NCBI RefSeq assembly: GCF_036324505.1
Contig: NC_086360.1
Span: 14,911,293 to 14,975,292 of the forward strand
Reading direction: 5' to 3'
Source of the DNA: Eleginops maclovinus
Lineage: Eukaryota > Chordata > Actinopteri > Perciformes > Eleginopidae
DNA: 64,000 nucleotides
Shown here: in pieces, positions 7,775 to 58,746 of the stretch
Numbering within the stretch: position 1 is the stretch's first letter
Layout: every line of letters starts with the position of its first letter
Program-made: the position numbers and the translations under genes
Notes under the pieces: model-generated
Told to the model about the DNA's origin: nothing
Database searches by the model: none
What the model saw: the letters and a program-made list of their open reading frames with translations, nothing else

Positions 7775-8070
7775 GCGTTTTAGTCCTTTCCTTTTCGAAT
7801 TAAAAGGCCACTCTCGGGATGCCGGGATTCGTGACGTGCCTCTCTTTGTTCCCAAAAAACATGAACCGAGATCATCGAGTCGAATCAGATTTATTTGGTT
7901 GATCCGGCATACAAACGCACATAGGCTTTCTTGTTTTAACGTAAAATAAAAAGGTATGTCTCCGTGTCCAAACAATTACAAAAAGAGCACGGTCAAAAAG
8001 ATTATACTGGCTCCCGTCTAAGGTCGCCAACCGTGTGTGATTGCCCCGCTATATAAGGGCACACAGACAT
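7775..8070 (-). mobile_element. Possible solo LTR remnant, minus orientation
   Basis: Read on the minus strand, this block is unlike the AT-rich flanks. It has a TATATA-type box near 8050, then CpG-containing sequence, a polyadenylation-like AATAAA near 7890, and then a GC-rich end with GGCACGTCACG and CCCGGCATCCCGAGAG. That order (TATA, then AATAAA) is what an LTR would show. I see no clear TG..CA ends or target duplication, so edges are approximate. It could instead be another kind of repeat or unique sequence. Confidence 0.25.
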
Positions 8071-11000: not shown

Positions 11001-14000
11001 CTGATTACTAGTCTTCTGCTTACCTTCTGTCTGACCACTGGGGCTGTCACATCTGATTGCATCGATTCAGTGTCGCTGAACACAGTATTAAAAGAAGAAA
11101 AGTTAAAAGTGTGAAAATAAAAAATAATAAAATAAAACAGGCCTTCTAATGTAACAGGCCATAGGTTACATATCCTGCATTGAATCAGCAATATAATATT
11201 TAAATTAATTTACATAACCTTTAAGGTATAATGTTGTTTAAACCTTTAAAAAGGTGATATTCAGTTTTGGTGAACCATATTGCTGTGCAGATGCTTGAGT
11301 GGCAGGTTTATCTGTGAGCGAGCAGATGGTTTTGAGGAATGACCGTGGACAGAGATGGAAAATAAGAGTGGGTAAGGAGAGTCGGGATGGATGGTGTAAT
11401 TTTTTCGCTTAGCACCAAGAAAATTAGAAGTGTCGGAGTAAATTTGTTGTTAGAGGAATCCTTAACAAGGCCATCTATGGTATTAGGTGTATCCCACTTC
11501 CATAGCACTTAACTTCAACTATAGGACTACAACAATCTCGAGTATTCTTTACTGATAATTTTCAATGGCGATTCCATCACTGCAAGATCTGTATTATAGA
11601 GCAGAATGCAGTCGGCAATTTTGAGGGGACATGCTATTGCTGTTTTTAGCAAAGTGAACAAAGTGCATCCCCTTATTAACCCCCCTTCCCCCAGTTGCAG
11701 AGGGGGTTTGGGGTTGGAGGGTTTGTTTAATTGAATGTTTTATAGTCTGATATATTTGATCCTTAATTTGACTGAAGTTTGGGCAAGTTACTATTTATGG
11801 CCCTGTCCAGCTCTCTGAAATATCAGTATCTTAAAGGACTGCCCACACCAATAACTAAATCTGTAACAACAATACCTTCAAATATATAATCATCAAAATT
11901 GTTCTCAATAAAGTGGATTGCGGTGTCCAGTCAGTGGTGACTGATATTGTTAGGATATTTTGCAGAGTTATTTAATGAGCAATAATAACACTGACAGTTT
12001 TATCTTGGTTTTTTTTATTTTTATAAAAAGGCAGGTGTTCATGGGGCAGGTGACTTGTGACATGTGAACCAAGCTACCCAGTAACACATTGCCTTATGTG
12101 TGGTTGTGTGTGCTGGTTCTGGCTGCATTAGCAAGGATTTTTGCTAGCATTCAAGGAATGTCTGGATATGGACCTGGAGAGGAAGGATTAGTGCAGGTAC
12201 TTAAAACAGATCAGCACCTCTGACCACCTCTCAATGCTTTAAATGGCTGTTCTGGCAAAAGCGAATTTCATGATACAGGAGAGTGAAAAAATAGGGGATG
12301 GGTTTTGGAGATGAGTTTGAGTAAGCCATGATCTGCTGCAGGTTTTACGACATCAATCCAATATTTTCCCTGAAATTAACACAATTCAACTACACCAATA
12401 CCTAAAAGCACTCTTTCAAATTGGTTTCATCACTTCACTCACATAATAATACTCTGTTTATCTAGCTGTGACTTTGTGTTAATAGACAATGAAAGGTTCA
12501 CATGGTGTCATTTTTATACTTAATTAATTGGCTTCAGTTGTTTCTTTTTGACATTACCCAGTGACTATAGGCAGCAATATGAACAAAGCCTGCTCTTCAA
12601 TCCCAAAGGCTCAGCAGCTTGGCAACATGCACTGCAGTAATGCCCACACATAGTGTAAACAGGAAAACAGGAAACACACTGGAAAACAGTTACATCACAC
12701 TTCCCCCACAACACGTACAAACACACAGACGCACCCAAATCCACACTCGATATGTGAGATGAATATCCAGTAATACCTTTTGCTACTTGTTAAGGTTATT
12801 AAGAGGAAATATATGTACCTGTCTGACGCTTATAATGGATACATTTGTTATGTAAGCTGGCAAAAGCTAACACATAAAGTCTTGCTTTTATAGTTTGTCC
12901 ACTGGGATTTTGAACGGGTTTGGAAAGTTGATTCACTGCAGCGATGTTTGTAGTTGGAAAATGGTGAGGCAATAACTACTTACTACTGGAAAGAGATACA
13001 TAACAAAAGAAGAACAGTTTTTCAAATGGCCAATGTAATTTCAGTACAGTTTGGTTGAGATGTTGCTGTCTGACAAATGCTGATACAACTCTGCTCAAAT
13101 CCGAGTCAAACAAATGAACTTTGTCTGTACACTGTAGAAGAGCTGACAGATTCATTAAGACATGCTGCTCCATCAGTGGAACAGGAAAAACCTCCACCTT
13201 TGGCGTGAGCATTGTATTGTGTGGTTCTCACATTTTATGAAAAGCCTGATGGCAGTGTAATCCTTAGGATGCATGTACTGAAGCAGCACTGCACTTTTTT
13301 CCCAGTGTGCAGTAACTGTTTTCTTTTTACCTATGTGTTGTATCTGTGAAGGCTGTAGCTCATTTTGCAGACCCCCAAGAGGAAGGAGTGTATTTGGTCT
13401 GTAAAAAAACAGCCTCCAGATGCTCACCTTGGCCGAGCCTAATTGCTTAGAAGGGGGAATTAGCTGTTGCACATAGCAGTGCACAAACGAGGCATCTGGG
13501 GTTGTCTCCTTAATCAAACTCTGCACTTCAGATGTGATAATATGGCTGAGGCTGGGCTCCTCTACTTGGTGGTTTTATTTTTAAATACACTGTCACTTTA
13601 AGCAGCAATGTTTGCTGTTTCAAGCAAACAATGGCTTTAAACAATATCCTGCAGCTTCGAAGGAGTTTAATCTAGCATTAAGAGGTCAACTTTAAAATGT
13701 CTTTTCCACAAGATACTCCTCTTTGTTTATAATGACTGATCCAGCAGTCTACGTCTCAGACCGACCTAACTTCAGTAAACACTGAGTGATGACAGATTAC
13801 TCCTGCAGATTCTCAGCAAGTTATTGATATTCACTTTTGTTGCGCACTGCATTTGAGAATAATAAAAAAAATCAAGGTGGTTGCCACGCTGGTTCCTATT
13901 ATTATCAGTCTTTATTGTAAGCTATTGTAAGCTAACTGCTTGCTGCTGCTTTATAATAAGTTAAGAGATGAAAGTGGTATTGATCTTGTCATCTGACTCT

Positions 14001-15889
14001 GGCTGAGAACGAAAATAAGCAGATTTATTGTTTTATAAGGGTTTTTTCTTTGTGGATATAGCTCATCTCTCATGTTTTATTCTGTTTGTTTGCAGAGCTA
14101 CTTGCTATCTACCTGACATATTAATGTGAATAAACATAATTAATAAGGGGACATACCCACCTGTCTCTTTTATATGGCTTTCCATGAACTATGACAAATT
14201 ATTATGTCTGTTGTCACAACAAACTAATGTGACAATGTTGTTTTAAAAAAAATCAAATACGGCTCATCCTTTCCATCCTGCCAGACTGTCCAGTGTTTTA
14301 ACATTGCTCAAGGTTGAGGAAGATGTGAGTAACAGTGATGAACTCTGAAGGACCTGCTCATGCAGAAATCTCTTCCACTCATGCATTTAACATCTTTAAG
14401 ACCTTTTACATCCACCACAGCTAGATGTATGGTTCTAATTCAGTGTTTTTCCTCAAAGTCTATGATACAGGTTACAGTGAGCCTCTCAATGAACACAGCT
14501 GTTGATTTAAGGAAGCTGTAAAGGGATGTGCTGATTGACTTCTAAGAAAAGGTGCTGTCACCTGTCAGCCTCTTTAAAGAACACTCTTTGCTTCGGTGTG
14601 ACAACAAACCGCTAACCTTGATATGAACTCTTCAGCATTAATGGACTGCTGTGTGTCCAAGCATGTGGGAAGACTGTAAGTTCAACCCCTCTCTGCTTTG
14701 TTATCTCTTGTGGAGAGATGACCTTTCTGTGTCACTGTGTGCCTTCACTCTTCTTGGCTTGATGTCTGCTTGAGTGTCTTGTCAACAGTTTCTTATATAA
14801 GGTGCTTGGATTACAGTGCTCACTTAGGGATTTAAGAGTATCAGTTTTCTTAAGATGCTAGACATTGCTTTGTTTTCTGACCTGCAGCTTGGATTTTTAC
14901 AATAATTGGGTTTGTTTCCTTGTTTTCTTAACTTAGGTTAGCACAGAGGAACAGGAGTGTTAGCCTGTTGTAATATTGATAGAAAGCTAGAAATAAGAAG
15001 CTTATTTTTAGAATCTAATGCTGCTCGATATTTGGCTAAGAAAATAATGGCTATCGTTCCACAGCTTCTCCTAATTACTTCTGGTGTGTGTTTGATTAAT
15101 GTGCTGCAATGCCATTTCTTCACTGTGTGTAAGACTGTGCGTGCAGGCTCTTGTGTGCTGGTGTGTATGTGTGTGCACTTGTCTTCATGTTGCGCTGGGG
15201 AGGTTAAAATTGATTTGAGAGCCAGAACTGCTTAATCTTCTTTTAAAATTGGTATTCGACAGAAAGCTTATCTCAGAAGCCAGAGAGAAGGCGATGGAGG
15301 AGCGAGAAGGGAGAGGAGGAAGGAAATGAAAGTGGGATCTGTGTCTTTTGCGTCATTGGCCCGATTCTGCATCGCTTCCTTTGTTTAGACTTCACTTCAC
15401 CAGAGAATGGTAATCTGTATGTTTTGGGCAGAGACAACCAAGCCATTCTTTCAGCATACTCACCGTTGGAGATTGGTTTAATACTCTCATTATTGAAGGA
15501 AACAGACAAGGTTTTCTTCTTCATAGTGAAAGAGGTACTAATACTATCCTGTGCTGACTAACCCTCATGGTATGAAACCACCTGAAAATGATTTGCCTGC
15601 AGAGATGAAGAGACATGTCAAGTCTTGCTATTTAAGATAAAATTGTTATCTCACCTTTGAATCTTTAAAAGTCATGAAACATCATTCATACTTTATTGTA
15701 AATGAAAATACAGCAAGTTGAATGATGTCAAAGTGGACATTTTCTCACTGAACAATATGAAAACTTATTCAGCAACTGGGCCGATTGATTATCTGCAGGA
15801 AAGTAATCGATTTTTCACCCCAGGTTGGAAGTTGCTCAAGTGAAGAACCTGATGTATATGGAGGTTCCCAGATTCAATCTGCTCAAATA

Positions 15890-16105
15890 AGGTTTACTTC
15901 ATCTCTGGCTTTGGTTCGGGCTGGATAAATGCATCCGAAGTATGTGTACTATAGGAGGTCATTGGGGCACATCCAAGTAGGAGAAGACCCCAGGCCAAGG
16001 ATGAGCTGGTGGACATGAAATTATATCTGAGCAACTTGCCCAGCCTGCTGTCACCACAACCTGATAAACAAAAATGTTATGAATGGATGGATGACAATAA
16101 ACTAG
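15890..16105 (+). mobile_element. Degraded 3' end of a fish LINE-type retrotransposon
   Basis: The stretch from 'GGCACATCCAAGTAGGAG' through 'AGACCCCAGGCCAAGGATGA' to 'GGATGGATGA' resembles the diverged 3' tail of a common fish non-LTR element, whose copies typically end in a GGATGGATGG run. Many substitutions separate it from the form I recall. No reverse transcriptase frame is left. Family assignment from memory is uncertain, and the left edge is a guess. Confidence 0.5.
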
Positions 16106-18105
16106 ACTCTTGTTCTCATACTCTGTTTCTTAAAAACAAGCACATGTACTCCTCTGGACTTTCCTAAAGAACTGAATCTGAAATAAAAAATATCCCCTGC
16201 TGGGTTTTCCTTTTATATTACAACAGAATAGCGTTTAATTTTCCCTGACATCTCCATTTCCCAGTTTGCTTTGTGCTGGGGATAGCCCAGACAGCACACA
16301 ATGTCATGTCTTTTTTTCATTTGCTGCTGTATGATGCAACTAGTGATATAATGTCCACTATACTGTAGGGCTGATACTGTAAGCAGAATGGATCAGGCCT
16401 TTCCTGTGTCTCACGGTAAGCATCATTTTGGAAATACTGGTATAATGCCAGTACTTTGAGCCCACCATAGAGACATATTCAAAATAAGCAGGCCCATTTG
16501 TCTTACTTTAGGGCTGAGGCTGATCAGTAAAAAAAAAAAGCCCGTTCCTCACGATGATACACTCAGGCATCGATCAAAGTCATCCTTTTTGACTACCTTG
16601 TTATGTGGTGGATGTGCAGAAGTTCTATATTCCCCCAATTTATTATTAAATAATTGTTGTGTATATACTTATACTATATATACATGTAATAGAAACTATC
16701 ATGAATCCACATCTGTAAACTGTTATTATAATCTATAGGATTTGATCCATTAAACTGAAATTGAACATGAGTTTTTTTAGAAAGTCTGTTACAGATCATC
16801 TAAATGAACATTTTCCTGGGACTTAATTTATAATGTTGGCATTCACATACACGCCACATGAGGAAAAGAGAGCCTGCATTATTCATGAAGGTGGAAAAAG
16901 GCTGTAACACGCTGTGAGAGTAATCTGATGATGATCAGACTGATGATGATGAATATGATATTATCTCTCCTGGGAGACATCATTGTGTGTGACAGGTTGA
17001 CATGACAAAACAACCAATAAAACAACACCTGAGTATGAGTGTATAAGTATACAGTAATCCATACAAGTAATTAATAAACATTATAAAACTAAGTGATAAA
17101 GCATACTGACAGGCACAGAAAATGCCCAGCATGCTGTGTATGATGCTGACACACCCTGTACAGCCCACAGCAGCTCTTATTTCCAGTTTAAAGAATGAGC
17201 TGGTTCATTAACAATTATCAATCTCTTCTCATTGCACAAATCTCAGACTACCTGTAAATGTCACCGTGCTTAACACTCCGCAGGGAATTAGCTGGCTGTA
17301 CTCCCAATTTTATTTGTCTTGTCTTTGTATTTTCCTCTTGGAGAGTGAAGCAAGAATGATACTACACAAATGAGCTTTAAAACAACATGGCTATATGTCT
17401 CTTAACTCTAAACTGTAACCCTCCCTCGATGTTCATTTTTGTCTTCCTACCACATCCTTTCTGATCAGAATATTTTAAGGTCTCCTATTATGCTCTTTTA
17501 TATTATAGGTCTCAAATATATATTAAAAAACATGTCTCTGACGTGTTTTGCTCAAAATACCAAACAGATCATGCATTTTAGCATGTCTGCTATCCCTCTG
17601 TTTCAGCCCCGTTTTAGAAAGTGCTGATTCTGTGACTTTCGCTTTAAATTTGAGCTGAACAGAAGCTGGCCACACCCCTTTGGAGCGTCATGATCTCTCT
17701 TGTCTGAAGAGAGAATTTTCTAATGGAGAAACTCAGCTAAACGCTGCGGTGATTAAACCCCATATTATGTCCAAAACCACATCAAGCATTATTTCTGAAA
17801 CACATGTACAACAACTCTAAGTCCCTCCCGCAGACATCCTGCACAGACACACAGAGGTGCTGCAGAGGGGCTTCAGCTCGCATATATATATATCGCATGT
17901 ATATTGCGGACGATAGGTTGAGACGTGTCACGTGGGTGGGACATTGCCAGGAGTTCAATGTAAAGCCAGCCCACATTGCCGATGTGACGTCATATCGGCA
18001 GCAAATCTGGATCAGCTCGTTTGTACCCCCGTGTGGGTAAGGAGGAAAACAGAGAGGGTTGTATTTTCTGACACTTTGTGAGTCTCCTTACACACCGGGG
18101 ACACA

Positions 18106-19714
<1,609 letters not shown>

Positions 19715-19969
19715 TTTATGTATAAAAGAGAGCAAAAAGTGTATTTTGCATATATGGGGACCTTTAACTGAAACGTGATCTGTGGGGTTAGCTCACTCCT
19801 CAAGAGTGTGTCCCTTAGCCTTTTTAAGTGGTGGATACAATTGTGGCATTAGAAAGTTAGAAAGGGGGGACACAGCACTATTTACTCAAACATTTTTCAC
19901 CCCTCTTTCACTGAAAGACAAACGGTTTGGGAGATCAGCCACATTTATTATACAACATAGTATAATTAA

Positions 19970-21002
19970 CAGGGTGTCCGCGGGGTCTTAAAAAGTATTA
20001 AAAGTTGATAAATCAATTTAGCAAAAATTAAGGCTATTAAAAAGTAAATAATTGTCCAAATAGGTTGTATTCTAAAGTTTGCCTGAATTTAATCATTGCG
20101 TAGGTGAGATATTGTGTAGTTTATTTATGGCATCCCGTTGGATCTGTCAACCGGCGTTCGGTCCATTTACGCCGGTTGACAGTTATGGGGAAATGTACGT
20201 TTTCGTCCAAATGGTTGGAAGAGAAGGATTTTGAACCATGGCTGATACCCGTCACTGGGAATAACCGCTAGGCCTACTGCTGCGTGTGTCGGAAGGTGAT
20301 CAGTGTAGCCTCGATGGGGATCAAAGCTGTCCGGTCCAAGTGCTAGCCACAAAGCCGCTGTGGGACGCAGACAGCAGGTCGCAATCGCGCACTTCTGCGC
20401 AACATCACCACCCCTACCCACCATCACTGAAGCTACTACAGCCACCGCTTGTAACCTCCGAGTGATGGTGGGCGCCACTCCAACGCTGCGGGCAGAGGTT
20501 CTGTGGTGTCTCAACATCGTGATAAAACACCAATCCATCAGCAATGTTCCCAGATTCTGAAATAGCCAAGAAGTTCGCCTGCGGAAAAGACAAAAAAGGG
20601 TACATAGTCCCCTTACTTTAAAGAACAGCTTGTTAATAACATCAACAAGGCTGGGCCGTTTGTGCTGATGTTTGACAAGACAGATGGACGTCCACGTTCG
20701 TTATTGGGATGATGGCTGTGTGCGGGCCAGGTATCTTGGGTCACAATTTTTGGGACACGGAAGAGCCGAGCATCACCTTATTTGTTCTATCTGATTATGA
20801 TAAGGAGTTATCACAAACTGTTTAGTTGTGCTATCTTACAATCAATACTGTATAGCCTATACTAAATGTGAGGTAAGGTGTGTCGCCAATGTAACCGGTT
20901 AGAACTCGAAGTGGCGATGAGGTCTTAAAATGTATGGAAAGGGTCTTAAAAAAGGTCTTTAAAGGTATTAAATTTGACTTCAGGATTCCTGCATATACCC
21001 TG
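19970..21002. mobile_element. Decayed hAT-like DNA transposon
   Basis: The ends are short inverted repeats: CAGGGTGTCCGCGGGG at the left and the reverse complement CAGGGTATATGCAGGAATCC at the right. They are flanked by a direct AATTAA (19964-19969 and 21003-21008), which may be part of a longer decayed target duplication. Internally, GGTCTTAAAAAGTATT near the left end and GGTCTTTAAAGGTATT near the right end recall a repeat common in fish. The + strand interior carries a broken coding remnant. The hAT assignment rests on the CAGGG-type ends and the zinc-finger-like coding remnant, so it is probable rather than proven. Confidence 0.6.
20180..20830 (+). pseudogene. Remnant of a BED/CxxC zinc-finger transposon protein
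   Basis: On the + strand, interrupted frames can be followed by eye: a KWLEEKDFEPWLIPV segment (from about 20207), then, after a stop, AYCCVCRKVISV (about 20274), then segments with frame changes including FVLMFDKTDG (about 20660). The FxPWL...CxxC arrangement is like the N-terminal zinc-finger region of hAT-type transposon proteins in fish. Several stops and frameshifts make it non-functional. Similarity is judged from memory. Confidence 0.45.
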
Positions 21003-23864
21003 AATTAAGGATAACTGTCTCTAGAGAATAAAAGAAAAGGATAAGGCAAAAGTACATCCTGTTGTTGACTTACATAATTTTTCTGACACATTTCCAATTC
21101 CACAGCTGCCTGTTCTGCCACTAGGATCATCATCAATTCTGATGACATTTGCTTTTCCAACATACTAAATTTTTCTCTGGGCATTGCAGCTCTTTTCATT
21201 CCAAGCAGCCCCCTCCAGGTTTGTTTGGCCACTCAGTGGTGGTGGGGGAGGGGGGTAGCAATATGAGAAAGAGGGACATCAATGCATACATTCCCTATCA
21301 TCACCTCACCGCCCTAGGCTCTTATTGTTAAACTATGTATCCTCGTAGTTCCTGCATTAGTTCCTCCAAGAGAAAGAAAGAGTAAGAGCTTGCTGAATGA
21401 ATTGCAGACAAAAGAGCAGGAATTAGCTGTTAATTTTTTGAAATCGTCATTATTTGTAGTCATAGGAGCTCCACTTGTAAGTCTGTGTTGGGCACTAAAT
21501 CCTCAAATCTCAAAAACTAATTGAGTATGTAGTAAGCCCTTCTTGAAATATTTCAGATATGTTTGTTGATGTTATGCTAGGCTTGTACCTACAGAATGTG
21601 GTCATACAGCGCAACTGGGTATGAGGACATGTTTTTGCACGTTGACACGTAGATAGACAAAGAGAAATTGTCTGTCTGTATATGAACATGTGCACACATG
21701 TTTTTCTACGTATGCATGAGCGCATTACCTGCTTGTGTTTGTAAGCATACAGTGTGCATCTCTCTCAGTTTCCGTGCATATTCATGTTTGCTAGTATTGT
21801 GTAAAAGCAGTGCACTAGCAATGCCTGCCAGTGGTGGGAAAGCAGCTATTGGTGGGTTCCCAATTGTAGAGCGAGTCGTGGGGTATAAGCTGCTACAGCT
21901 CCGGTCTGGTATCTTTGTTTGTTGTGGAGCTTAAGTTCTTAAGCGAGTACTGCTTAGAGGTGAGGCCTCAGACTTGCATTCCTTCCTCTTGCCTTTTTTT
22001 TCCCTTTACGTCATCCTCCCCCTCCATCATTCTTTCTGTTTTTCTTCCTCTGATGCCTCATAGAAAGGACAGTGAAAAGACACGATAAGAGGGTTTTAAA
22101 TCCATGCCAGAAGACACGGACGATGTTTTTTATATTGTGGTAAAGCAGGATGCGGTAGTAGAACTCTTTGCGTCACTACAGTCTTTGGTGCATTCATTGT
22201 GGTATTGACGATAAAACACAAGTGTGCTTACTGTAGAGAGGCTGCTCGTACATTACGGACACTTAACTTGCTTTCCCTGGGAGCCAATTTTGCTAATGAC
22301 GTGATGCCAAGGGCCGGTTAATACAGCTCTGGTCTTAGCCTGGACCTCTGCCGTGTTAAATCAACCTAAATCTAAATCACACGCAAATCCATCATGAAAA
22401 GAGCAAAAATGTACAACAATGCACATGTCTATTCATGTAACTCCACGCTGTCTTCCTCTCACACACACATGTGCACTCTCTCCTCTCTGGGACTAGTGAT
22501 TAAAAGCCATCATTATCTCGCTATGGCCGTAATGAGAAGCACGCACCTGTTTTCCGCAGCTGTTCTCGATCACAAGCTGTCGTCATTCACTCTCAGACCA
22601 GACGCTTCGGAGGTGATGACTATGTGATGCCATAAATCACCAGCCGAGAATCTAGTCACCACGGGAACAGGCCTCATTAGAATCAGCTAACCGGAGAGAG
22701 TCGTCCTTTTCCCCTGGATGCAAAAGTCCAGGAGCAGAATGGGCTTTAGTCACTGTAGCTCTCAGCCTAGCTTTTGGCATGGTATGGATGCAGGAGGGAG
22801 GTACTGAACTCATCGTTCATTGAATGTCCCAGTAATGACCATCTTCATGAGTCATGAAGCGTTTCCAGTGGACACATGGGTTTAGGCGTGGCTGACATAG
22901 TGGAGCATAATATGTTCACACCAATAATAAATTAATCATGTGTTGGTGCCATCATTTATTTTCCTTCTTTTTCATTTTGAAGACAGAGAAATGTGTCAAT
23001 AGACTTTTTTTGCCCCTTGATCACATCCATTTTCGGACATTTGTAAATAATAAAGGTTTCCATTTGGTTTATGTTTTTAAGCCACTATTTATTGGAGCCA
23101 ATCTTGCAGGTGTATATGTAGGCCCACTGTTTAGACTGTGATAAAATATGGTAATTTGCTCAGTTATTTGATAAATGAAAACCAATATATTGCAATAATT
23201 GATCAATATCTACTGTGAAAGCAAAGTGAAAATCATCAAGTCGGTATTAAAATACTGTGCCCAGCCAAGTGATGTGGTATGGATTGCAAAGCCCTGGATA
23301 TTCATTATTTTAAGATGTGTAAATATCCATATTTTATGTCTGTGACTTTTACTTCGTAGCGTCAACATTAACAGTGGGTGTCGAGGGGAGTTTTAAAGGA
23401 ATATTTAACAGCCAAATGTTGTTGCAGCTGACTCCAAGCCAACTGAGCAATTGAGTTATTTTCCATACCTGTCTGTGTGTCTGCCCTTTATGGCTTATCA
23501 TCATACCAATGTGCCTGGCCTTCCTGCTCTGTTGACCACTGATTGTTTGTGTTCATAAAAGTGCGCAATATGTATTTTAGCTGCATTTTCTTTGAGTATG
23601 CCTTTCTGATAACATCTTCATGCTTTGTCTGCCAGCAACCAACAAGAGAGAGAACACAGAAAGAAAGATATAGACGGGTAGGGGATGGATGGGGGGTTAA
23701 CGGATTGAAAGACTGAGGACTTACTACAATTAGTACTTGATACCAATATGGATTTGTATTATATACTGTACCTACAGGTGTTGGCATCAAGGATAAATCC
23801 TCACTTATTTTATATCACTCTATATACTTTGGTTCATACAAACTGTCTTCTAAATTGACTGCAG

Positions 23865-24217
23865 GGTGTCCATTAACTCCTGATAATGGACAGCTACTAA
23901 GTAGTTCAAGAGAAACGGTCCGTTCCCCATTCTAAATCAGTGTGCTGGCTATACGTAAAAAAAAACAATTTATTGCAATTATTTCATGTGAACAGGTTAT
24001 GTAGTTACAACAAAGTGAGACTTTAACATGTCTTTAACCCTTTTAGATAATGTGAACATGGATAAATGTTATGCAGCTAATGATAGAAATTGTTTTTTTT
24101 TTTAAAAGGGGGAGACGGTACAAAACACTAATTCAATCAAATAACAGATTACAAATATGGAATCAAGACAAAGGGAACAACACAATAGGCTTCATTGCAC
24201 AAAAATGAATGGACACC
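23865..24217. repeat. Possible small MITE bounded by 10-base inverted repeats
   Basis: GGTGTCCATT at 23865-23874 is the exact reverse complement of AATGGACACC at 24208-24217. The enclosed 333 bases are non-coding and AT-rich. No clear target duplication is visible at the flanks. The pairing could be chance. Confidence 0.25.
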
Positions 24218-24381
24218 AGCTTTGAAAACCACACTGATGATGAGACCCTGGAGGGCTTTTACACTTCGCCTCTGAACTATCTGTGTATCAAAAAGCAGTC
24301 ATGTCACTTCCAATTCACTACTCAACCTGCTTCAGGCTGACAGTATGCAATTGTTTGTAAAATACAAAATACATACACAAT

Positions 24382-24432
24382 GTTATTGCCTTCCAAAGCG
24401 GAGCCAAAGTCTTCACTATGGAAGGCAATAAC
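24382..24432. repeat. Perfect 13-base inverted repeat (hairpin)
   Basis: GTTATTGCCTTCC at 24382-24394 is followed, after a 25-base spacer, by its exact reverse complement GGAAGGCAATAAC at 24420-24432. In RNA this would form a 13-base-pair hairpin. The stem is too short for an ordinary animal microRNA precursor. Confidence 0.8.
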
Positions 24433-25037
24433 GTTCTTTGAGCTCAGCAAACTAGATAAATATCTCGGTCATATAAGGCTGGTTCTATTTAGTGGAGCAG
24501 TGAACAAAGCTAGTTGTCCTGCACAGGGACACAACGGGACCAGTGTAATGGGTTAGCACAGACATCCTGTTTCCTCTACATCCTTAGCAAAACTCAAAGC
24601 CAACTGCGAGATGTAGTCCCCCCAGCATATGTCAAAGTGTGTGTTGGTCACTTAAGTGATATGTGCTTTTAATTTGATGTAATGTGAGTGTCACTGGGGT
24701 GAGATTTGTCATTTTCCTCCCTGGCTCAATCTTATATAACCCCTTATTAGTTGTGTTGACATCATCTGTGAGTCGTGAGCCAGATTCTACATGTAATTCA
24801 CAAAGGGAGAAAGGAATATGAGAGACTTGAGTTGATCAATAGGCTTGCACTGGAATGGAGAGAATGAGTAGTTTTCTCACCGCGGCAGAATATTGATAAA
24901 CACTCGCAGTCTTCTCATTACGTGTGTTTGAGTGTGTGTATGGTGTGTCCACTCAGGTCAGGAGTCATATACAATGTGCCCCGATGCTTGTTAAAGCACA
25001 AATTACATCTCACTGCAGTCAATAGATTGTCCTGATA

Positions 25038-25114
25038 ACTTCTGTCTCTCTCTGCCTTCTTACCCATCCTCTCTCTATGTTCCCTCCGTCTCTTTTTTCT
25101 CTTTCTAGGTAAGT
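25038..25114 (+). promoter_or_regulatory. pde4d: Candidate recursive splice site in the pde4d long intron
   Basis: A pyrimidine-dominated tract of about 70 bases leads into CTTTCTAG (AG at 25107-25108), directly followed by GTAAGTAA (GT at 25109-25110). A strong acceptor abutting a strong donor with no exon between them is the signature of a recursive (ratchet) splice site. Such sites are established in long introns of Drosophila and of vertebrate neuronal genes, and I recall human PDE4D being among the vertebrate examples. The site lies about 23 kb into the roughly 60-kb intron that starts at 2028. Confidence 0.6.
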
Positions 25115-25163
25115 AAAAGCAAAAACAGCAGAGGTTTTATCTGAACATGAGATGGCTTGAAAG
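25109..25163 (+). other. pde4d: Possible RS-exon following the recursive splice site
   Basis: In vertebrates a recursive site is first recognised as the start of a short 'RS-exon' that has its own downstream donor. Here the segment from 25109 ends at AAAG before GTAACA (GT at 25164), a plausible donor, giving 55 nt. After any upstream first exon in phase 2, its first bases would read xxG-TAA, an immediate stop. That fits the known behaviour of RS-exons, which are normally removed and trigger decay if retained. The choice of donor is a guess. Confidence 0.4.
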
Positions 25164-28100
25164 GTAACACAACATTTGTTTTGTGTTATATGGGCATGAA
25201 AAGTACATATTTATGGCAATCAAACACTTGAAAACTCAACTTTGGTAGTTTTATTAAATAATCTTTTGCATCAATTGACTATTTCATACATCTTGCAAAA
25301 CCGTTAGCATTGATCTTGCAGACACACTAGTGATGAATAATAATAAAAAATCATACAGCATTATCTTCCAGAATCAGGCACCAGCCACATAATAAGATGT
25401 CTTCTTATTTTTATCAACTACTGTAAGGTTGCCAGTTCGTTTAATAAGCCTGGCATGATCAGTATGAGCCCGAACTGCTTTTGCCTAATGGTGGTGTTGT
25501 GTTTTGCTGCTAATCTGTTTATCTAATCAGATGCTGAGGTTAGGGGGTCTATCTCATTAACTTGCAGGATATTGATTTCCTGTATTTAGTGCAAAGTGCT
25601 CTGCAGCAGCTTGCTTCTACATTCCCAGATGGGAGGAGGAATGCAGGTTGCTTTCCTCGTAGCGCATCAATCTACCCCGCCTCAGCCCAGGGTTGTTTTG
25701 CAGTGTGTATGTGTGTGAGTTTGTGTGCCTGTACTCATGCCTTGGGTGTAAAAATAGCTATGCGGATTGATTGTTAGAGACACATGTTTGATGTTGAGAG
25801 TCAGTTCAAAATAAAGATAGAAAGATGGATGGCGCTGAAAACAATTTGGGCGATGATCATTGTCTTAACATTCTTCTTCAAGATATGATACACAAAACAT
25901 TAAATAATCACTGTGCTGAAGCATTTCTGACATACAAGAAATAGTCCACACTGCTGGGGTTTTACACCTTGTGTTGCCATTGCAATCAATAGCCTTTAAT
26001 AAATAATTTTAAGAAAGAGCTTCCCACACAACATCTTCAATGGTTGAAAATGTTTGGAAATAAATGCGTATTGGAGTTACCTGTAAGCTGGGCGCCCCAT
26101 GTACATGTGTGTGTACATCAGTAGATGGATGTTTAGCTTTATTTCTGTTGATAGGGACATGTGCAACCATATTAAAAAAAGATCTAAGTAAGTTTGTCTA
26201 TTTCTGCAAAGCTCAAAATCTAGCACAAGAAATCCAGCTGAGCACAACTTCCTTAATCCCAGCGTTCAGAATCACACAAATCTGTTCATGTTTCTGTCTT
26301 TTTCTGTTTTGGTAAGGAAAGGCCAATACATTAGTTTAGGACTCCATGCTATAAACAAACAGATCGAAGGCTACTTATAAATCTGTTTTGATTTAATATG
26401 TAATTCAATCAAAACTTCCATGGGTCAAATTGTACAAGTTGCATTTCTCTCTCTTTTTCTTGTCCGGCAGTTGTGTTATGGATTGTCGCTCCTGCTGTCG
26501 TCTGCTAGATTATGGTACGTTTGCTGGAGTGGCATCTGTTATATGAACACATTAATGTGTGCCATTTACTGCAATGAGCGTGTGTGTATGTATGTAGGTG
26601 TGTGTGAGTGCGTGTGTGACGGCAATGCGTCATACTGCGACTTGCAGAAGCCCAGGAGCTCCCCTCTGGTAGCTCCCATGCTGCCTCTATCCGTTATGTA
26701 ACTATGCTGTTCTCACACTATTGCCCTTTTCTAACTCTAGCTCTCTCTATCTCTCTCGCCCCTTCCCTCCTCATCCCTCTCTCCTTTTTGTTTTTGTATA
26801 TGCATGTTTTGAGTGTTGCATTTTTCGAGCCTTAGTGAAGTGTTAGGTTGGGATTAGGGGGGTATTTTGTGCTGATGTGGAGCTTGAAAGTGTGCGCCAC
26901 AATGCAGAGGACAGCAACTTGTAGAGGCCAATCAGAATATGGTTTGTTCTCTCATTCGCTAATTATGTCTCTGCTTCGTTCTCTCTGTATCTCTCCATCT
27001 GTGTCTTCCTTGTAGTATAACATAAATCTCTCTTCCTGTGAATCCATTCCCACCCACTCATTCTCTGCAGCATACCTTCCTTTGATAGAGCTCCAGTCGC
27101 AACTAGAGTACTCACTTTTAACCAGTCAGTGTTAAGAGCATTCAGTTCTGCACCAGGGATTCATTACTTCTCTTATAAAGAAAAATATACAGAGAAAGTG
27201 GTTTGGAAAGGAGGAACAGGGGAGTATGAATTTAAATCTGTAATATTTAGGAACGTTATTTTTTCGTGATTCTTTTACTCTAATACAATCTAAATGTACA
27301 GATGTATTCAAGCATTTTTTTTCTGATATTACGGAAATTAGATGTATTTATTGAATTCAAAAATGGGTAAATTTACTGCGCGATTAATATTTCATTTAAC
27401 TCAATGGTACAACTATATCTCGCCAGATGCCCACTACACATTACTCTGCCCTAGGAAGCAGCTGTTTTACAGTCAGTGGGAGCAGGTGTTTGTCAGCATG
27501 GCATACCCATTACCTTTATGGACAGCTTTATTAGCAGTAATATGATACTTTGTTGATCTCTGTGGTGAAGCTCACTATTTGTTTGCACCCTCCGCAGTAG
27601 AGGTCACTGTGTACAGTCACATACAGAACAGGACACCTGCAGCTCACAACGTGTGACATGAAGAAATGTGTGGGCGTCAAACATTGACGAATGGCTGTTG
27701 GAGATGAACATGTACTTGTATTTCTGCATAAATCCTATTGGTTAGTTCACATTATAAATTCATGATGGTATGGAGATGTGGGAGGGGATTTGAGAATCGG
27801 TTTGTGGTAAGAACCCAATTCTGGTTGTCAAATTGTTTTTGGTATTGCATGGTTCTGTTAAACTAGCAAGTAATTCTATACACTCTGTATCAGGTTTCAG
27901 TTTGATTGGACTGGAGCCATGGCTGCGAGTAAAAAAGCTTCATAGTTGAGTCACAGATAAACCCGTATGTACCTGTTTTTTCACACAACACTTTATCTGG
28001 AATTTAAACTGGAGTATGATGGCATAGTGTGACAAAAATCCAGATTTTCTCCAGCCAACAGTGGAGTGCAGTTTTATGATCATGTTCTGGTAAGACTTAA

Positions 28101-31100
28101 TCTCTCACAGTAAAAAATGATCATGTTGTTAGAGCGTGGGTACACCACTTCATTACGGAATAATTCCTCTAGCGCTCTAAACAACAGGGAGCTTTATATA
28201 ACATATCCGAGCGTGAAATATTCCTCAGCTTCTCTTCAGGAGGCTGAATACCCGGTGGTTTTGCTTAGTGCTTGTTCTCATTGTATTATTTTCCACAGAG
28301 GTCACATTTCTGTCCTTTTTAGCAAAAATATCTACTAAAAAGTTTATAGTCTCCCGTTAAGCAGTAGGTTTTTTCTTTGATCTCATGTGACAGAAATGTG
28401 GGGTTGCGGTTTCTGTCTCTCCGCAGTCGCCTGCCTGTTAGAGCCTGCAACTACATCAAACACACAGATGGTACAAAGAGGCATATCCATATGCTTGTGC
28501 ACACATGCAAGCACACAGTCTCTCACATTTGAATGTTTTTGACCACAAGTTCACATATGCAAAAGTACAACACACACTGGCAAGTCAGCTTTATTGATGT
28601 TTCAGGACTGATCAGTTTGTGTGTGATAGCATGTTTACTTTATTGTGATCCATTTCAACATTTCATCAGCTACTGTGACAACTATGACGACAGTGTTTGC
28701 TTCTTATACAGAGAGCAGAGTGTATGAGACTGAATGAGTTGCTTTCAGTTCAGTGTAGGATGTCGTAATTCTTGCTCCTGCCAACCTTAACCTGTACCAG
28801 CCTCACACAGGTTTCACACAAATGTAACACACGTCACTCCCTAAAATCCAAACTCCTTTTCCCCTTCCTTCTCATCTGCAGTTGTAGAGTACAACACTGC
28901 ATCTTATAAAACATTTACTCAAACCCTCTCCTCTCTGGGCTTCTCTTTTTTCTCTTTTCATCTCTTGCTGAAGCCACCTCCCTCTTGGGGGTTCTAGTGG
29001 GCTGACATATTTAATTTGGGGATGGTGAGGTGTGGATGAAATTGGGGTGAAAGTTTGACTTTTAAATGTCATGGGAGCCATGACAGCAGCTGACAAGAGT
29101 GGCAAGACAATCTCATTATGCTCTTCAGCTTTTCCTCTCAAATTCAGTCAAGAAGCAAACACAGAATGCTAATTATTTAGTGAGAGATGCATTTCTAGTA
29201 TTGTAGTTAACGTGATTACCAAAAAAAATCTACCTGAGCAGTCTGCTTTTTTAAGAATTTAAAAGTGCTCATGTCACTTTTGGTGACAAACTGCCATTGG
29301 TTAACCATTTTTACCTAGCCATATTTAAGTCTCATTTAATTACTTCCCATTTGTTTCTATTCTTAAAGAACAATTTAACACCCCGTTTTAGGTTAAACTG
29401 CTCCCATTCACAGCAGAGAGAAATACTGTATTTTCTTGGGATAAGTCAAATTAAAATGTTGAAGTTGCTTTTTAAAATGCAGTAAAAAGGAATTATTGTT
29501 TCATACTGTCTTGGAACAAAAAGATTATCAACCATCAATTATTAAACAGAAGGAAGTTATCATCTGTCTCACATGCACACTGGGAAATAAGGTCTCTCAG
29601 AAATTGAGAATTCTTTTTTGGTTCTAGCTACAAAGTGGGATGATTGAATATAAGATGTGCAGAATTGTATGATTAGCATAACACTAGTTCATTTGCCCAG
29701 TTACATTTCACAATAATGCATCATTTATTTAATTTTTCAGGCTCTCAAATCAATTACAATGTAGACTTAATTACTCTAAAGGCTTCTTAATGGTAATCCA
29801 TTAGGCTTAGGACATATCTGTATAGGTGGCCTTCCCACATGCAATATTATGTTAAAAGATCTGAAAATCACTCAATATGATCCATTGTTATTTGGTTTCA
29901 ATGCTTGTCATTAATTCAATAGAAATTTGACACATTTTCAAGTAAATTCCTCCATTAAATTCCATTCTTCAGTTGGAAAGTCTTTTCTTTATCATTTCAA
30001 AGCACTCCATATTAGTGTTTGTTTATGTATCTGCCCTTACATCAGTTACATACACACATTGAGTAATATTACATTTGTTCAAACAGCTGCTCTTCACTGT
30101 GATACTCTTAGGCCTTAAACTTTGTAAATCAAATACATATATATTGTGTTTTCAACTTGTGTTGTGTTTTGCATTCACAATGCCCATTTGAATTTGTTTT
30201 ATAACCATGCATATACTCTAAAATATGTGCCCAATGTGCACGTATTTGGAAGGGCGTGTGCTGGTCTGTGTGACGGAGTTTGGTGGTTTCTTCCGCAGTG
30301 TGGAGACTGAATGTCACAGACTGAGCCATTTTCAGAGTAAGATAATTTTATAGCCTCCTAACCTGTAATTACTTTAACAGTTTAATGTCACACAAGTCCC
30401 CCACAATTCTCTTTCCCACATTCTGTACCCTCTTCATAATTCATGCCCTTTAATGGAATCTAGGGCAGTCATAGAAAAACAAGAGAGAAAAGCTTAGCAA
30501 TGAACTTCAATCACACCACTATCTTTCAAAATAGTCACCCCATTTTCAGGTTTATCTCAATAGCTTGAATGAATATTTTCTATGTCTTTTTTTCTTACTT
30601 GTTCTATGTGAGTACATGTTAGCAGCATGGCTTTAGGCATAAGACAAACTCACTCTGTTCACCCCTAGGTCTGGAAGCTGTTCAATAAGATAAGATAAGA
30701 AGATGGTCAATAGTACCACACAAATCTTCATTCAACTTGATAAAACTAGTTAGCCAAAGGCACAGTTATGAAGTACATATAAAGACAATATACACAGCAG
30801 GGTTTCCCACACATAGACTTTACTTGGGCGCGCCGCCCAGGTATATTAACGGCCGCCAAAGTATAACTCCCCCCCCGGCCTACTAGCAGCTAACATGCTA
30901 GCACCGCAAAAATAAATTGAATCACCACTATGGCCTTGCACTATTAGTTTGGTTATCAATGATCAAATGTTTAAACTTGGTGACAACAAAGTCGGTCTAA
31001 CAATTATATGCCTACAATGATCAGGGCTCTAAGTTAAATCATTTTTCATTCATGCAGTTCAACAGCCAGCATTGTTTGTCCCTTGAGCCTACAGTAATTA

Positions 31101-34100
31101 GTGTATCGCCGTAGGTCATCATTAGGTCATATCATCCCCCAGAGGAATCACTAATCTCAATCAAATACACACTCAGTCTATCCAGTGCCATGATTAAGGC
31201 TCAGACTAGTCAGCCAGTGGAGGGGAAGCCAGTCGAGCGCCTCGGCTGCACCAGTGACACAACGTTGGTGCAATGCAGGAAAGTCTATTTTTGGAGGGGG
31301 TAGAGCAACAGAGCTGACACCATGGCTGGGAATGGAGGTGCAGAAAGCATTGGATGGGATGGATACAGATATTTAGGGGCTAAAAGTGGAAGAAAAGTGT
31401 AGATCTATACAACGGTGTTACACAGATTGAGAAACAGGTAGCTGTAGCACTGATATTGTTTATGACATCAGTATGCACTATTAGCACTCATTTATTTTTG
31501 TTAACACATCTGTAAACAAATGTAATTGGTCACATGTTTACATTATTTACAAACTTATCTTAGTGCAAGGCCCTAGCTTATAGGTAAAAACTATAACACA
31601 TACAGTTGTAATTTAAAGCTGACTAATTTAACGCATTAAACTAATTACACTAGTATCCACATGCAGAGAAAAGTCAGTAATAGCCCAGTAAATGATATGT
31701 AGTTTTATTTAGAATTTGAGCAAGGTAATTCAACCAAAAAAAAAAAAATGTTTTTGGCCAAATTCATGTTTTATTGATTCTTTACTAATGATGGTAGTCG
31801 TTTTTCTTTATTATCTCTGTAAGGTGCAACAATTAAACAACTTTGAATTCTTCTTTTTTTTTTGTTAAAAGGTTTGAGAATTCAACCCACAGTGCATTTT
31901 TTACAGTTCACATTTTTAACTTGTCATAGCTAAAAAAACACATGTGTAATTAATTCCATTAATGATGGCTCTGTTCCTTTAATCACTCTGGAAAACACCA
32001 AACTAAATAGATGTATTAATGTCGATACTTACACCTGTGCTTTACCTGCAGCGGCATTTTTAAGAATGTCCGTCTGGTCACCAAACATCACTTGTGTTCA
32101 CTTAAAGCCAGCTTCATCTGTCACGGAGTATTGTCTCTATAGTAACAGTGCAGGGTGACTGGTGGTGACATTAATGAGATACATAATGGATTTTAATGCA
32201 CTCCTCTCTTATTGAAATGTGCAATGTAGCATGTGATTGGTCCTATTTATTCTCTGATGGCTGCAGATAAAAAGTACAATGCTGGAAATTCACAAAGCAC
32301 TTGACAATCAGTCCTTCCGTGTGCAGACTGGCATTCATATATCAGTAAGTTTGGGGAAGAGCGTGCAGGTCAGGTGTGTGACCCTTAACAGTGCCCTTGT
32401 TTTAATAACAAAATGAGCTCCAAAATAATTCAGAAATTAAAAAAATAGAGAAATAATCTTATCCCTAAAGAATAACTATATATCGTCTAAAGCTGAGAAT
32501 TTGGAATATGTGGTTCCTCCATCTTTATCACTTGTACATACACACCTATGCAGTTTGTGACGTAAAGTAGTAAATACCAAACCTGCAATAAATCAATAGT
32601 AGTATGTAAACACTTTGCACGTACACCCTTGTTAGTACATTGTGTATTTGCCACTTGTTTTTTGATTTCAGTGAAGCCACTTATCCCTCTGTCCATAAAA
32701 TGGGATAATGAAGGTATCAGAGTTAAGAGCAGTGTTGATTGCTTCCACTGTTAGGGAGACCCGTGTTCAACAGATGGCGTTGTAGCGGAGATGGCCTCGG
32801 GTATGGACCATTGATGTTTATCTAGCTCCCATCTGTACTTACTCTTGGAACACCTCCTTGTATAGCAATAAATATCACCGTTTAACGTGGTGTTTTTTAA
32901 CCACATATTCATGATGCTTTTAACCATGGGGTCTGGCTCACCATCTGATTGAGAAATTAAAAAATGAGGGCAGATTTAGTACTCTTCCTGTTGCATTTTG
33001 TGAAAGTGGAGCGCTACACGTTGTGATGTTCCCTTACGCTCTATATGTCGGTGAAGGGTTTCGAGAATACATAATTATCTGTGCCTTTTGCCTTTGACAA
33101 TTACAGCGTAAGCGGTTCATTTTGTAATATAAATATTTTGCAGCACTTCATAGTTCAATTACGCACAATATGTGCCTAATAACTACTGTCAAATGTAGCT
33201 AAATCCAACCTGTGCACAGTCATATATTTTCCTAATCAAATCATGGGCTACTGTATGGAAAGCTAGGTATATTAAGACAATAGACATGTGTTTTTTTTAA
33301 ATGCCTATACAAGATTTAGGAGCTTAAATCAAAAGATACTATTTACTGTGCTCATGTTAAATGTTTTATTCTTTTATTTGGGAAATTCCCAAAGTCCCTT
33401 GCTTCTGCATTTTTGTCTGCCTTTAATCAAAGGGTCAGAAAGCCTCTCCACAAGTGATCAATTTTTTGGGCACTTAAACATTCTTCACATTCTACAAATG
33501 GCCCTTGAAGCCTCTGTGTCCCCATTAAATGAAGGGATCTAATTACAAAAATCTGATTTTGAAGGGGAATCAGTTAACCTTTGCTCAAATGCCACTGCAT
33601 AACCATCTGTGAATGGCAAGCAGGAGGACCGGGCCCAAGGCATTTCCACAGCGACACGCAGAGTGATGGACAGCTAGCCTACCTCAAAGGAACAAATATG
33701 TGAACGAGGGCCTGTTCTCCTGGCAGTCTCTAGAGGGATTCACTTCAGTCTATTTGAATATGAAGTCCATTATGTGACTAGGCATCAATATGCAACACAG
33801 TTCATATATTGATGTTCCTATAGCAAGGCTTACCTTACGTTCCTTCTCAGGTTTTTCTCGACCTGAAGAGTTTCATTATACGTCATACATACATCTGGCA
33901 GGCCCTGCTGTTGGAGCAGCTCTGTGATGAGACTGCAGATGTTGTTCAGCCTGTGTTTTTTGGACATGGATCTGCAGATGAATGAAGAAAAGTACTTTGC
34001 TAAATGTCAGTACATGTGAAATCGATATGTACTTGTACTGCTGAGTAATCCGGCCTCTTTCCCTCTGAAGCCCAGTTACAGAGCGCTATTTCAGACCACT

Positions 34101-36050
34101 AATGTAATGGAAAAGGCCTGCTGATTCAAATATGATGTGATATTTTGTAAATGGAAAATCATTGTTCTGCTTACAAGCAGGGGTCACAGATGATGATGGG
34201 TTAACACTGTATTTTATGGCGGTAATATGTCATTGTGTTAGCTTTCTGCCTGGCACATATCGCTGTTCCAGTATTTCTGTGTCCCTGCAGCATGGCTGCA
34301 TTTGATCTTTAAGTTAATTCTTATCAATCTTACCTTGATTTATTGCTGCTACACTTTCACCCCCCTTTTTTTTGTTTTTTCCCATCATAAAACTAATTTA
34401 AAAAGCGTCATTGATCTTGTTGTTCTAAAGATGCTAGTATATGCTAATCAATCGCGTCTGTCTTTGCAGCTTTGCTTTTTGTTTGTATTTCTCTATTTCC
34501 CTCTCTCCCCTTCTCCTGCTTTCTATATATATTTGATACTGCCTTTAAACTCTCTCATCCTGGCTTTTTCTCTCAGTTTGCAGGATGACTCATGAAGTTA
34601 GCTTTCCAGTGTTGAGTAGAGCAGGGGCCAACAGCCCCCAAAGCATGGATTCAGTTTATGTAATAGCATACACATGCACACACACACGCACAGGGTCGTA
34701 CAGTGTATGTTCTATTATTCCACTACTGCCCCCACTTTTGTCCGGCATGAGTTGTGTGAAATTATATGATTGTTTAACATTTTTTATCTAAGAGACAGCT
34801 GGATTGTTGTTTCTTTTTCTGTGTGTATACATAATGAATAACAGGTGCTTCAGTGCTTTCTAACTGCATTCTTGCTTAACCTTTAAGGCCCATTTTATTG
34901 AAAATGCTCTCCCTGGTGTTGCCTAAGCTGTCAAACCTGCCTGTTTACACACTTAAACTACCCACATCCCCCCAGATAACTGCTTTTCTGTCTCTATGTT
35001 CCCGCAAGCAGATTCCTGAACATGCAACTTCACTCCACCCTATTCGACACTGACTGTTGTGGCTGAAGGTGCAGGCTTTCAGAGGCTGTGAGGTGGTTTG
35101 GCTTTTGGCAGTAGTTGGGAGGCTGCTGACGTGTTTGGGGCAGGATGTGTGTAAAAAGCAGAGCTGGATCCTGGTTTTCAGACCGCAGCAACAGGCTAGC
35201 CACAGCTATTGACTTTAATGCTAAACACACACACAGACACAACTTCAGTGTGCAAACCCTAACCTCAACTCATAACTTCCTCGCCAACACCACTTAATCC
35301 CAAATGTGCAAATTGATATGTGCAAACAAAGTCACTAATACACATGCATGCAAACACATAGTGTTACATAGACAGACATGCACTCTTAATCCAATTAAAT
35401 AAGATGAATTGCAGATAGGCTGTGATTTATCTTATCTTCAAAATTGATCACCGACTGGGGCCTGAAGCAGCTGGTGTAAGAACAGAGGAATGGATTATTC
35501 TGCGACCAAAGTAAGACATCCTGTACAACGAGTAACTTAAAACAAACATGCCACGAGAGGCCCCCTGCATGTTTTCACACTTTCATACGCGCAAACTATG
35601 TCACACACACACACATAAACACACTGAGAAAAATAAGACGGCATTTGTTGTGCGGTTTGAAATTTTATGGTTCGCTGGCATGCATGCAGACACTGGAGAC
35701 AGACAGAGGGTGTGCTTTGAGCAGCAACAACAGAAAACAAACTTACATGGCAACAGCAGCTTTAAGGAGACACACACACATTACTTTAAAAAAGAAAAGT
35801 AAAGCGGAAGATGAAATTTAAGGGAGGAAATGAGGGGAATTACTTCTGTCAACACTTTGCCCATATAACTTAACGCAATAGAGGCTTTAGGTGTGAATCA
35901 GTGCACTCCTGCGTGTATGCAGATTGTACATGTGCAGACGTGTTCCTCTCTGAATGAAGTGCAGCTGCATGTGGTAAGAGGATCAATAGGTTTAGCTGAC
36001 TGGATACTGAGAGGCAGGCACACCTCTTACACGGGGTCAAGACATCCCAC
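25164..36050 (+). other. pde4d: pde4d intron between the recursive site and the PDE4D3-type promoter
   Basis: About 11 kb of AT-rich intron with no exon I can support. A CAGGGTTTCCC-type hAT-like fragment and an imperfect inverted-repeat block (30798-31573) are listed separately. The rest shows nothing recognisable beyond short homopolymers and low-complexity patches. Confidence 0.65.
30798..31573. mobile_element. hAT-like non-autonomous element fragment with inner inverted repeats
   Basis: The left end CAGGGTTTCCCACACATAGA and the following GC-rich hairpin (TGGGCG, three bases, CGCCCA at 30825-30839) match the start of a repeat family I recognise as common in fish. Further in, GGCCTTGCACTA (30932-30943) has its exact reverse complement TAGTGCAAGGCC at 31561-31572, and similarity continues inward for about 60 bases. 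I do not find the inverse of the CAGGG end, so the right edge is uncertain and the element may be truncated or composite. Confidence 0.4.
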
Positions 36051-36916
36051 TTACTCGAGCAGGGAGGGAGAGAGGGAGGAAGGGAGGGAGGGAGAGACGA
36101 GTGAGACAGAGACTGAGAAGGGGAGATACCGAAGAGACACTTCACTGTTTTTTTTTCTCTACCGGTTTCCTCACTTCCCTTCCTTGGAGGTTGTTATAGG
36201 GCAGCACATAGAGGGAGACGCAGAGTAAGAGACAATGCTGAGAAGATGAAAGCAATTGTGAGCGTGTGAGTGACTCTGTGTGTAACATGCTCTGTCATGC
36301 TGGTGTGACTACCGCTGCCTCTCCAACTGCCTGTCAGGAAAAGGAATGTTTTCCGGAGGACTGAGTCCCTGAACCAGTTCACCATGTGGATGTGGGACAG
36401 TAATTTCCAAACCTTTTCCGGAAGAATTCCTCGGAAAAAAGAGCAGCAGCTAGAGAGCTTAGCTGGTGCTGCTGGGTGGCCGCCTGTGTGCTCACACTGC
36501 TGAGAATCCCGCTGAAAGACAGAGTTCACACTGGGCTCAACTCTGCTACCAGTTTCTTTTTTTATTGTCACATTTATTGGGATGTTTATTTCTTTTCACA
36601 AAGTCAATGGATTTTATGGTGCTATGTAGTTTGATTTTTTTAACATTGCCTTGTTGGATGTAAGCTGGCACTTTTTACAGTGATGAACTAGGACCAAACC
36701 AGTGAGGTTGGAAGTTAAGGAGCTCCTTACTGAAAGACTGGTCTGAATGGGTACATCACAGCAGTGGACTGCAGTATGGGACACTATATATTGTGCTGTG
36801 GCCTGCGGATACTGTGGGGCAGTGTCTGTAGATAGATAGCCCGATAGAAAGGTAGGTCCTGACCCAGCTGCAGTATGAAGCCTGGACAATGTCCAGGTGT
36901 TCACAGTGACAGGTCC
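36051..36916 (+). promoter_or_regulatory. pde4d: Putative promoter and leader of the PDE4D3-type transcript
   Basis: Directly upstream of the PDE4D3-type start codon lies a GGGA/GAGA-rich purine stretch (about 36060-36120) followed by about 0.8 kb of mixed sequence. Upstream ATGs with short frames occur, for example near 36607 and 36617, and could dampen translation if they are in the leader. No TATA box stands out. The boundary between promoter and leader is unknown. Confidence 0.3.
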
Positions 36917-36966
36917 ATGATGCACCTCAGCCACCATTTCCCTTTCAGAAGACACTCTTGGATATG
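36917..36966 (+). CDS. pde4d: pde4d alternative first coding exon, PDE4D3-type N-terminus
   Basis: A very short exon of 16 codons plus TG, ending at a GTGAGT donor (36967). Spliced to 61852 it reads MMHLSHHFPFRRHSWIC followed by Phe-Asp-Val-Asp. This is the PDE4D3 N-terminus: the MMH start and the block FPFRRHSWIC are as in mammals, with one extra residue between them. In mammals the RRHS serine (Ser13) is a PKA site that strengthens binding to the muscle AKAP anchoring complex. Here the equivalent is Ser14. The double ATG start is kept, and the second ATG has the better context (A at -3). The exon was found by its conserved peptide because its frame is too short to stand out otherwise. Confidence 0.95.

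Positions 36967-39686: not shown

Positions 39687-39842
<156 letters not shown>

Positions 39843-44876: not shown

Positions 44877-45004
<128 letters not shown>

Positions 45005-45360: not shown

Positions 45361-45471
<111 letters not shown>

Positions 45472-58657: not shown

Positions 58658-58664
<7 letters not shown>

Positions 58665-58743: not shown

Positions 58744-58746
<3 letters not shown>

Follow-up and report, generated by a model that had tools for sequence, protein, structure and literature searches.

We analyzed a window of 64,000 nucleotides from Eleginops maclovinus (C12:14911293-14975292; the assembly comprises 606 Mb in 27 contigs), whose host gene is probably the fish pde4d, and found within a very long intron of this gene a directly fused acceptor and donor, AG|GTAAGT (read as AGGTAAGT at positions 25107-25114), which is the signature of a zero-length exon. 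Judged from its sequence, this element is rather likely a recursive splice (RS) site of the vertebrate type, provided with a poison RS-exon and encountered only by transcripts of the PDE4D5 type or longer. Its membership of the vertebrate recursive splice sites is probable and not proven.

Within the window the site was a clear outlier. All splice scores were computed with 5' and 3' position weight matrices built from human frequencies and not with MaxEntScan, the 3' matrix spanning 23 nt. Acceptor and donor together reached 25.3 bits, about 10 bits more than every other AGGT on either strand (best other score 15.15 on the plus strand, with 217 sites including this one, and 15.21 on the minus strand, with 191 sites). 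The acceptor alone scored 16.4 bits out of a maximum of 18.8, while the real common acceptor at 61852 scored 6.65. The threshold for a strong 3' splice site in PMC6110456 is given on another scale, as a MaxEnt score of at least 5. A score in the style of Shapiro and Senapathy gave 93.9% for the site and 77.5% for the next best in the window; our version is less stringent than that of the literature (a cutoff of 80% corresponds to an expected 2.1 sites per 100 kb, versus 0.12 in PMC2773006), and the two rates are not comparable. The combined score was matched in none of 200 dinucleotide shuffles and none of 200 shuffles of 250-bp blocks, and when 50 Mb of sequence were simulated with an order-4 model, 0 of the 630 occurrences of AGGTAAGT reached the acceptor score. 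The outlying score in the window and in the shuffles was counted in favour of a recursive site.

The fused octamer as such is no rarity, with 2 occurrences in the window versus 2.02 expected. Upstream sequence of 68 nt that is equally rich in pyrimidines preceded only 1 of 3935 sense AGs, namely the one at 25107, and 2 of 4367 antisense AGs, and this AG closes an AG-free zone of 81 nt. An equally high acceptor score occurred at three plus-strand AGs including the site; if the next six bases are taken as independent, 0.0005 sites of this kind would be expected on the plus strand. The two other plus-strand tracts with an acceptor-like score equal to or above that of the site lie at 2471 and 50001, with no recognised exon behind them. 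The first-pass annotation of the window had described a pyrimidine tract of 70 bases ending in TAG and joined to GTAAGT; the position and the junction hold, and the tract is more exactly one of 68 nt at about 90% C/T, not a pure pyrimidine run.

In the gene model the site lies far from the placed exons. Upstream of the first common exon we could place three coding first exons, which we labelled PDE4D5-, PDE4D3- and PDE4D9-type after the human N-termini; no counterpart of the 'unassigned' start of the first-pass annotation was identified. Joining the first of these (ending at 2027) to the C at 61852 in phase 2 yielded ...VAHT-C-FDVDNG...; the common exon was PDE4-like in a search of the PDB (PDE4B, E 2.3e-11), and neither exon taken singly was assigned to a family by Pfam. 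A scan for open reading frames in phase 2 added three unrecognised candidate first exons (17804-18036, 26064-26311 and 32279-32373). The intron used by PDE4D5-type transcripts measures 59,824 nt, and the nearest placed exons are at a distance of 23.1 kb on the upstream and 11.8 kb on the downstream side of the site, as compared with the thresholds that we applied of at least 5 kb of intron (more than 51 kb in mouse) and more than 2 kb to other splice sites. The claims that all first exons end in phase 2 and that the promoters are ordered around the site were both borne out for the placed exons: all three end in phase 2, only the PDE4D5-type exon lies upstream, and since the PDE4D3- and PDE4D9-type exons come after the site, it would be met by no transcripts shorter than those of the PDE4D5 type. 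The order PDE4D5, PDE4D3, PDE4D9 is also that of the human exons in a figure legend of PMC2929239. According to the same source, the conservation of PDE4D long forms other than PDE4D9 is primarily mammalian, with which the clear PDE4D5- and PDE4D3-type first exons of this fish gene contrast.

PDE4D is itself one of the genes for which recursive splicing has been reported. For the human gene, Zhang et al. 2018 give three recursive sites (PMC6110456), of which Sibley et al. 2015 also found two; recursive splicing of PDE4D was further found by Duff et al. 2015, as reviewed in PMC8758631, and a study of mouse brain names the gene with other RS genes when discussing its results (PMC8797253). The statement of the first-pass annotation that human PDE4D is an RS gene agrees with PMC6110456 and PMC8758631. 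The features described for mammalian RS sites are: the sequence AGGTAAGT, C/T-rich sequence in the upstream 20 nt, a strong acceptor, and location in introns of more than 51 kb that are mostly first introns (PMC8797253), in mouse within genes of more than 294 kb. In human, the rebuilt donor is the stronger one in 67% of the cases and the RS-exon contains a stop in 68% (PMC6110456).

Acceptor strength set aside, the tested sequence features of published RS sites were found at the pde4d site. Besides the AGGT core, there is a downstream 5' splice site that could define an RS-exon: the donor announced 55 bases further on is AAG|GTAACA (6.75 bits), which bounds an exon at 25109-25163. Splicing from the PDE4D5-type exon to the site would rebuild the donor ATG|GTAAGT, which at 9.96 bits exceeds both the original donor of that exon (8.24 bits) and, by 3.2 bits, the donor of the RS-exon. 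Retention of the RS-exon after the PDE4D5-type exon would give TGG-TAA, as had been predicted, and stops are present in three of three frames.

For transcripts that start at the PDE4D5-type promoter or further upstream we infer the following course, in which the use of the site in splicing, exon definition, decay and an isoform-restricted regulation are all conditional: i) the donor at 2028 would be spliced to the AG at 25108, whose recognition the RS-exon may help to define; ii) the resulting junction ATG|GTAAGT would act as a new, strong donor, outcompete the donor at 25164 and be spliced to 61852, so that the mRNA would carry no trace of the event and the RS-exon would leave with the remaining intron, in line with the competition model; and iii) in those cases where the RS-exon is retained, the frame would end at TGG-TAA and nonsense-mediated decay would be expected. 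The competition between rebuilt and RS-exon donor was put forward by Sibley et al. and is restated in PMC6110456 and PMC6224609. If the site is used, PDE4D would be spliced recursively in fish as well, either as a shared trait or through a second origin. PDE4D is tied to cyclic AMP signalling and to human disease, and a compact intron of 60 kb would suit the testing of the role of a single site.

Several known systems resemble this arrangement to a different extent. With the human PDE4D sites, its possible counterparts, it shares the gene, the AG|GT core, the RS-exon logic and the alternative promoters. In CADM2 and its zebrafish counterpart cadm2a (Sibley et al. 2015; PMC5126111, PMC6224609), a rebuilt donor likewise competes with that of a cryptic RS-exon, and reduced use of the RS-site lowered the zebrafish mRNA about two-fold (PMC5126111). 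That is another gene, however, and in pde4d the order of the promoters would confine the site to a subset of isoforms. Within the limited literature searched, no experiment on recursive splicing in fish other than the cadm2a test was found. The ratchet points of Drosophila (Burnette et al.; consensus (Y)nNCAG|GTAAGT in PMC5126111) also are zero-length exons with a full GTAAGT, whereas in the E. maclovinus genome the motif occurs at chance level (see below). The annotated RS-exons that are repressed by the exon junction complex (Blazquez et al. 2018, PMC6224609) likewise start with a donor motif, but they are mainly kept, constitutive exons, while the pde4d RS-exon has stops in all frames.

The first alternative to be weighed is that the element arose by chance, as a long stretch of pyrimidines that by coincidence runs into AGGTAAGT and that is unused or contributes rare splicing noise. 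We searched the whole genome with a strict pattern (12 pyrimidines, N, pyrimidine, AGGTAAGT) and with a looser one (9 pyrimidines). The strict pattern gave 10 matches, 5 per strand, and the looser pattern 31, the strict 10 included, where some of these counts may be lower bounds. Under independence, 5.9-11.3 strict and 23-44 loose matches were expected, based on three estimates of the GTAAGT rate with the site left out and on a sample of 304 kb that was not random (the window and stretches around three motif sites). A reversed control gave 22 strict and 87 loose matches versus its own expectation of 19-20 and 78-83. The zero-length-exon motif, at about chance level, is neither clearly enriched nor depleted in this genome; most of the ten strict sites are probably due to chance, and because the motif is at chance level genome-wide, its strength alone proves nothing. 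Since a near-perfect motif occurs in this genome no more often than chance predicts, claims of this sort have to rest on gene context and on RNA evidence. The count agrees with the lack of a strand excess reported for zebrafish in PMC2773006, where introns of more than 50 kb contained 0.112 RP-sites per 100 kb in sense versus 0.120 in antisense orientation.

These two results weigh against a recursive site, as do the following observations. The donor of the RS-exon is unremarkable (of the sampled positions, 13% had an equal donor at a distance of 20-120 nt and 38% at one of 20-350 nt). At least two of the nine other strict sites plainly are not RS sites of long introns, one lying in a nuclear-receptor-like open reading frame and one at a long coding frame, and a third is close to TRAPPC6B-like exons. 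The genome contains seven PDE4-type common exons, six besides that of pde4d, and in the four intervals that could be marked by a PDE4D5-like first-exon piece none of the 10 strict and none of the 31 loose sites was found. Finally, among five groups of IgLON exons, the three on C3, C9 and C18 had no strict or loose site within 500 kb.

The location of the site nevertheless favours a function: it lies on the sense strand, in a very long intron, in a gene for which three recursive sites are reported in human. On the sense strand of the 59.8-kb intron only 0.0005 strict sites would be expected by chance, although the selection of this finding from many windows weakens the point. Such selection leaves intact that the site falls in one of the few genes with reported recursive splicing: if the RS genes are assumed to span 1.5-6 Mb of sense strand, 0.012-0.05 of the 10 strict sites would fall in them by chance, and at least one does. 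In addition, the pde4d site exceeds the other nine both in the share of pyrimidines among the 68 upstream nt (0.90 versus at most 0.76) and in the length of the AG-free zone (81 nt versus at most 55 nt), and is one of four out of ten with a donor of more than 6 bits within 100 nt (pde4d and the sites on C5, C9 and C15). All in all we hold a chance origin to be somewhat unlikely.

Two further alternatives assign a different function to the same letters. In the first, the stretch is a regulated cryptic or poison cassette exon, spliced in some tissues through the donor at 25164 to lower the PDE4D5-type output by decay, with recursive use being minor. An acceptor and a downstream donor indeed bound an exon of 55 nt in which every frame is interrupted by a stop, and there are precedents in the partial retention in mRNA of one out of three tested RS-like cryptic exons of mouse (PMC8797253) and in the capacity of the exon junction complex to repress a rebuilt donor (PMC6224609). 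As the rebuilt ATG|GTAAGT is 3.2 bits stronger than the donor that such an exon would have to use, we consider this very unlikely. In the second, transcription starts just upstream and the stretch forms an alternative first exon with a short new N-terminus, ending at the donor at 25109 (GTAAGT) or at 25164 (GTAACA). There are ATGs open in phase 2 for both: the one at 25077 runs into 25109 (MFPPSLFSLS) and the one at 25147 runs into 25163, in frame with the common exon (MRWLES-FDVDNG). Each phase match has a chance of one in three, however, the peptides were not recognised, and a first exon has no need for a 68-nt tract and an AG, which leaves this the least probable of the options.

Either ATG could serve as an alternative N-terminus or as a restart codon. 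A more elaborate version of the recursive reading builds on the latter: the site would act as an isoform-restricted checkpoint, at which the choice for or against the RS-exon would determine how much PDE4D5 is made relative to a long form with a replaced N-terminus, via restart at the ATG at 25147. We consider this extension unlikely.

The genetic context of the nine other strict sites was scanned over different distances (two at +-50 kb, one at +-20 kb and six at +-1.5 kb) and genes were named from translations. The site at C11:24346935 shares its strand with an OPCML-like IgLON gene and precedes the first Ig exon of that gene by 213 kb. The gene is arranged tail to tail with another IgLON gene, an order that matches the human NTM/OPCML arrangement. 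A possible RS-exon donor follows 245 nt downstream, with early stops in all frames. The site would be a candidate recursive site of the OPCML-like gene, the first exon of which was not located and from which another gene may separate it; OPCML is a human RS gene (PMC8758631). The remaining two of the five IgLON exon groups share this single site on C11. The strict site on C15 is followed by a 47-nt stretch that resembles an RS-exon, with no recognisable coding exon within 20 kb. The other strict sites included one inside an antisense nuclear-receptor-like open reading frame, and one 0.8 kb downstream of TRAPPC6B-like exons; of two others, one has syntrophin-like exons in its vicinity and the other an exon like that of an alpha-2-adrenergic receptor. 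On C22 the long coding frame, by eye like a cytokine-receptor tail, begins directly with GTAAGT after the pyrimidine tract and is perhaps an RS-like exon that was kept. The genome yielded no second pde4d that has a close PDE4D5-type exon, and searches of the viral_contigs and genome_contigs collections gave no relative of PDE4D.

Coordinates of the features discussed (window positions, unless a contig is given)
Feature	Location	Strand	Remarks
PDE4D5-type coding first exon (from ATG)	1765..2027	+	donor ATG|GTGAGA, phase 2; 5' end of long intron
Intron of PDE4D5-type transcript, 59,824 nt	2028..61851	+	divided by the site into 23,081 + 36,743 nt
TAAC, possible branch-point core	25036..25039	+	about 70 nt 5' of the AG; inference from letters
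Polypyrimidine tract, 68 nt	25039..25106	+	89.7% C/T, 0 AG; base composition
AG|GTAAGT, fused acceptor and donor, candidate recursive splice site (zero-length-exon signature)	25107..25114	+	AG 25107-25108, GTAAGT 25109-25114
Candidate RS-exon, 55 nt	25109..25163	+	stop in 3/3 frames; frames and donor score
RS-exon donor AAG|GTAACA	25164..25169	+	6.75 bits, weaker than rebuilt ATG|GTAAGT
PDE4D3-type first exon (from ATG)	36917..36966	+	donor ATG|GTGAGT, phase 2; 3' of the site
PDE4D9-type first exon (from ATG)	55387..55451	+	donor ATG|GTAAAG, phase 2; 3' of the site
First common (UCR1) exon	61852..62043	+	acceptor TATGTAG|C
Strict site upstream of OPCML-like IgLON gene	C11:24346935	-	within C11:24345435-24348456
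Strict site with 47-nt RS-exon-like stretch	C15:8760821	+	stretch ends GTG|GTAAGT; within C15:8740821-8780820
Strict site at start of long open coding frame	within C22:9171907-9174928		cytokine-receptor-tail-like by eye
Further strict site	C11:2010200		
Further strict site	C18:23872673		

As to other signals around the pde4d site, a conserved RNA structure found no support (fold z = +0.74, with 154 of 200 shuffles folding equally well or better), and an Rfam scan of the window gave 0 matches. A repeat origin of the site was rejected: there was no direct or inverted repeat of at least 14 nt in 24700-25700 and no tandem array across the site. Elsewhere in the intron, the open reading frames at 18576-19232 on the minus strand resemble what we take to be the remains of a Tc1/mariner-type transposase.
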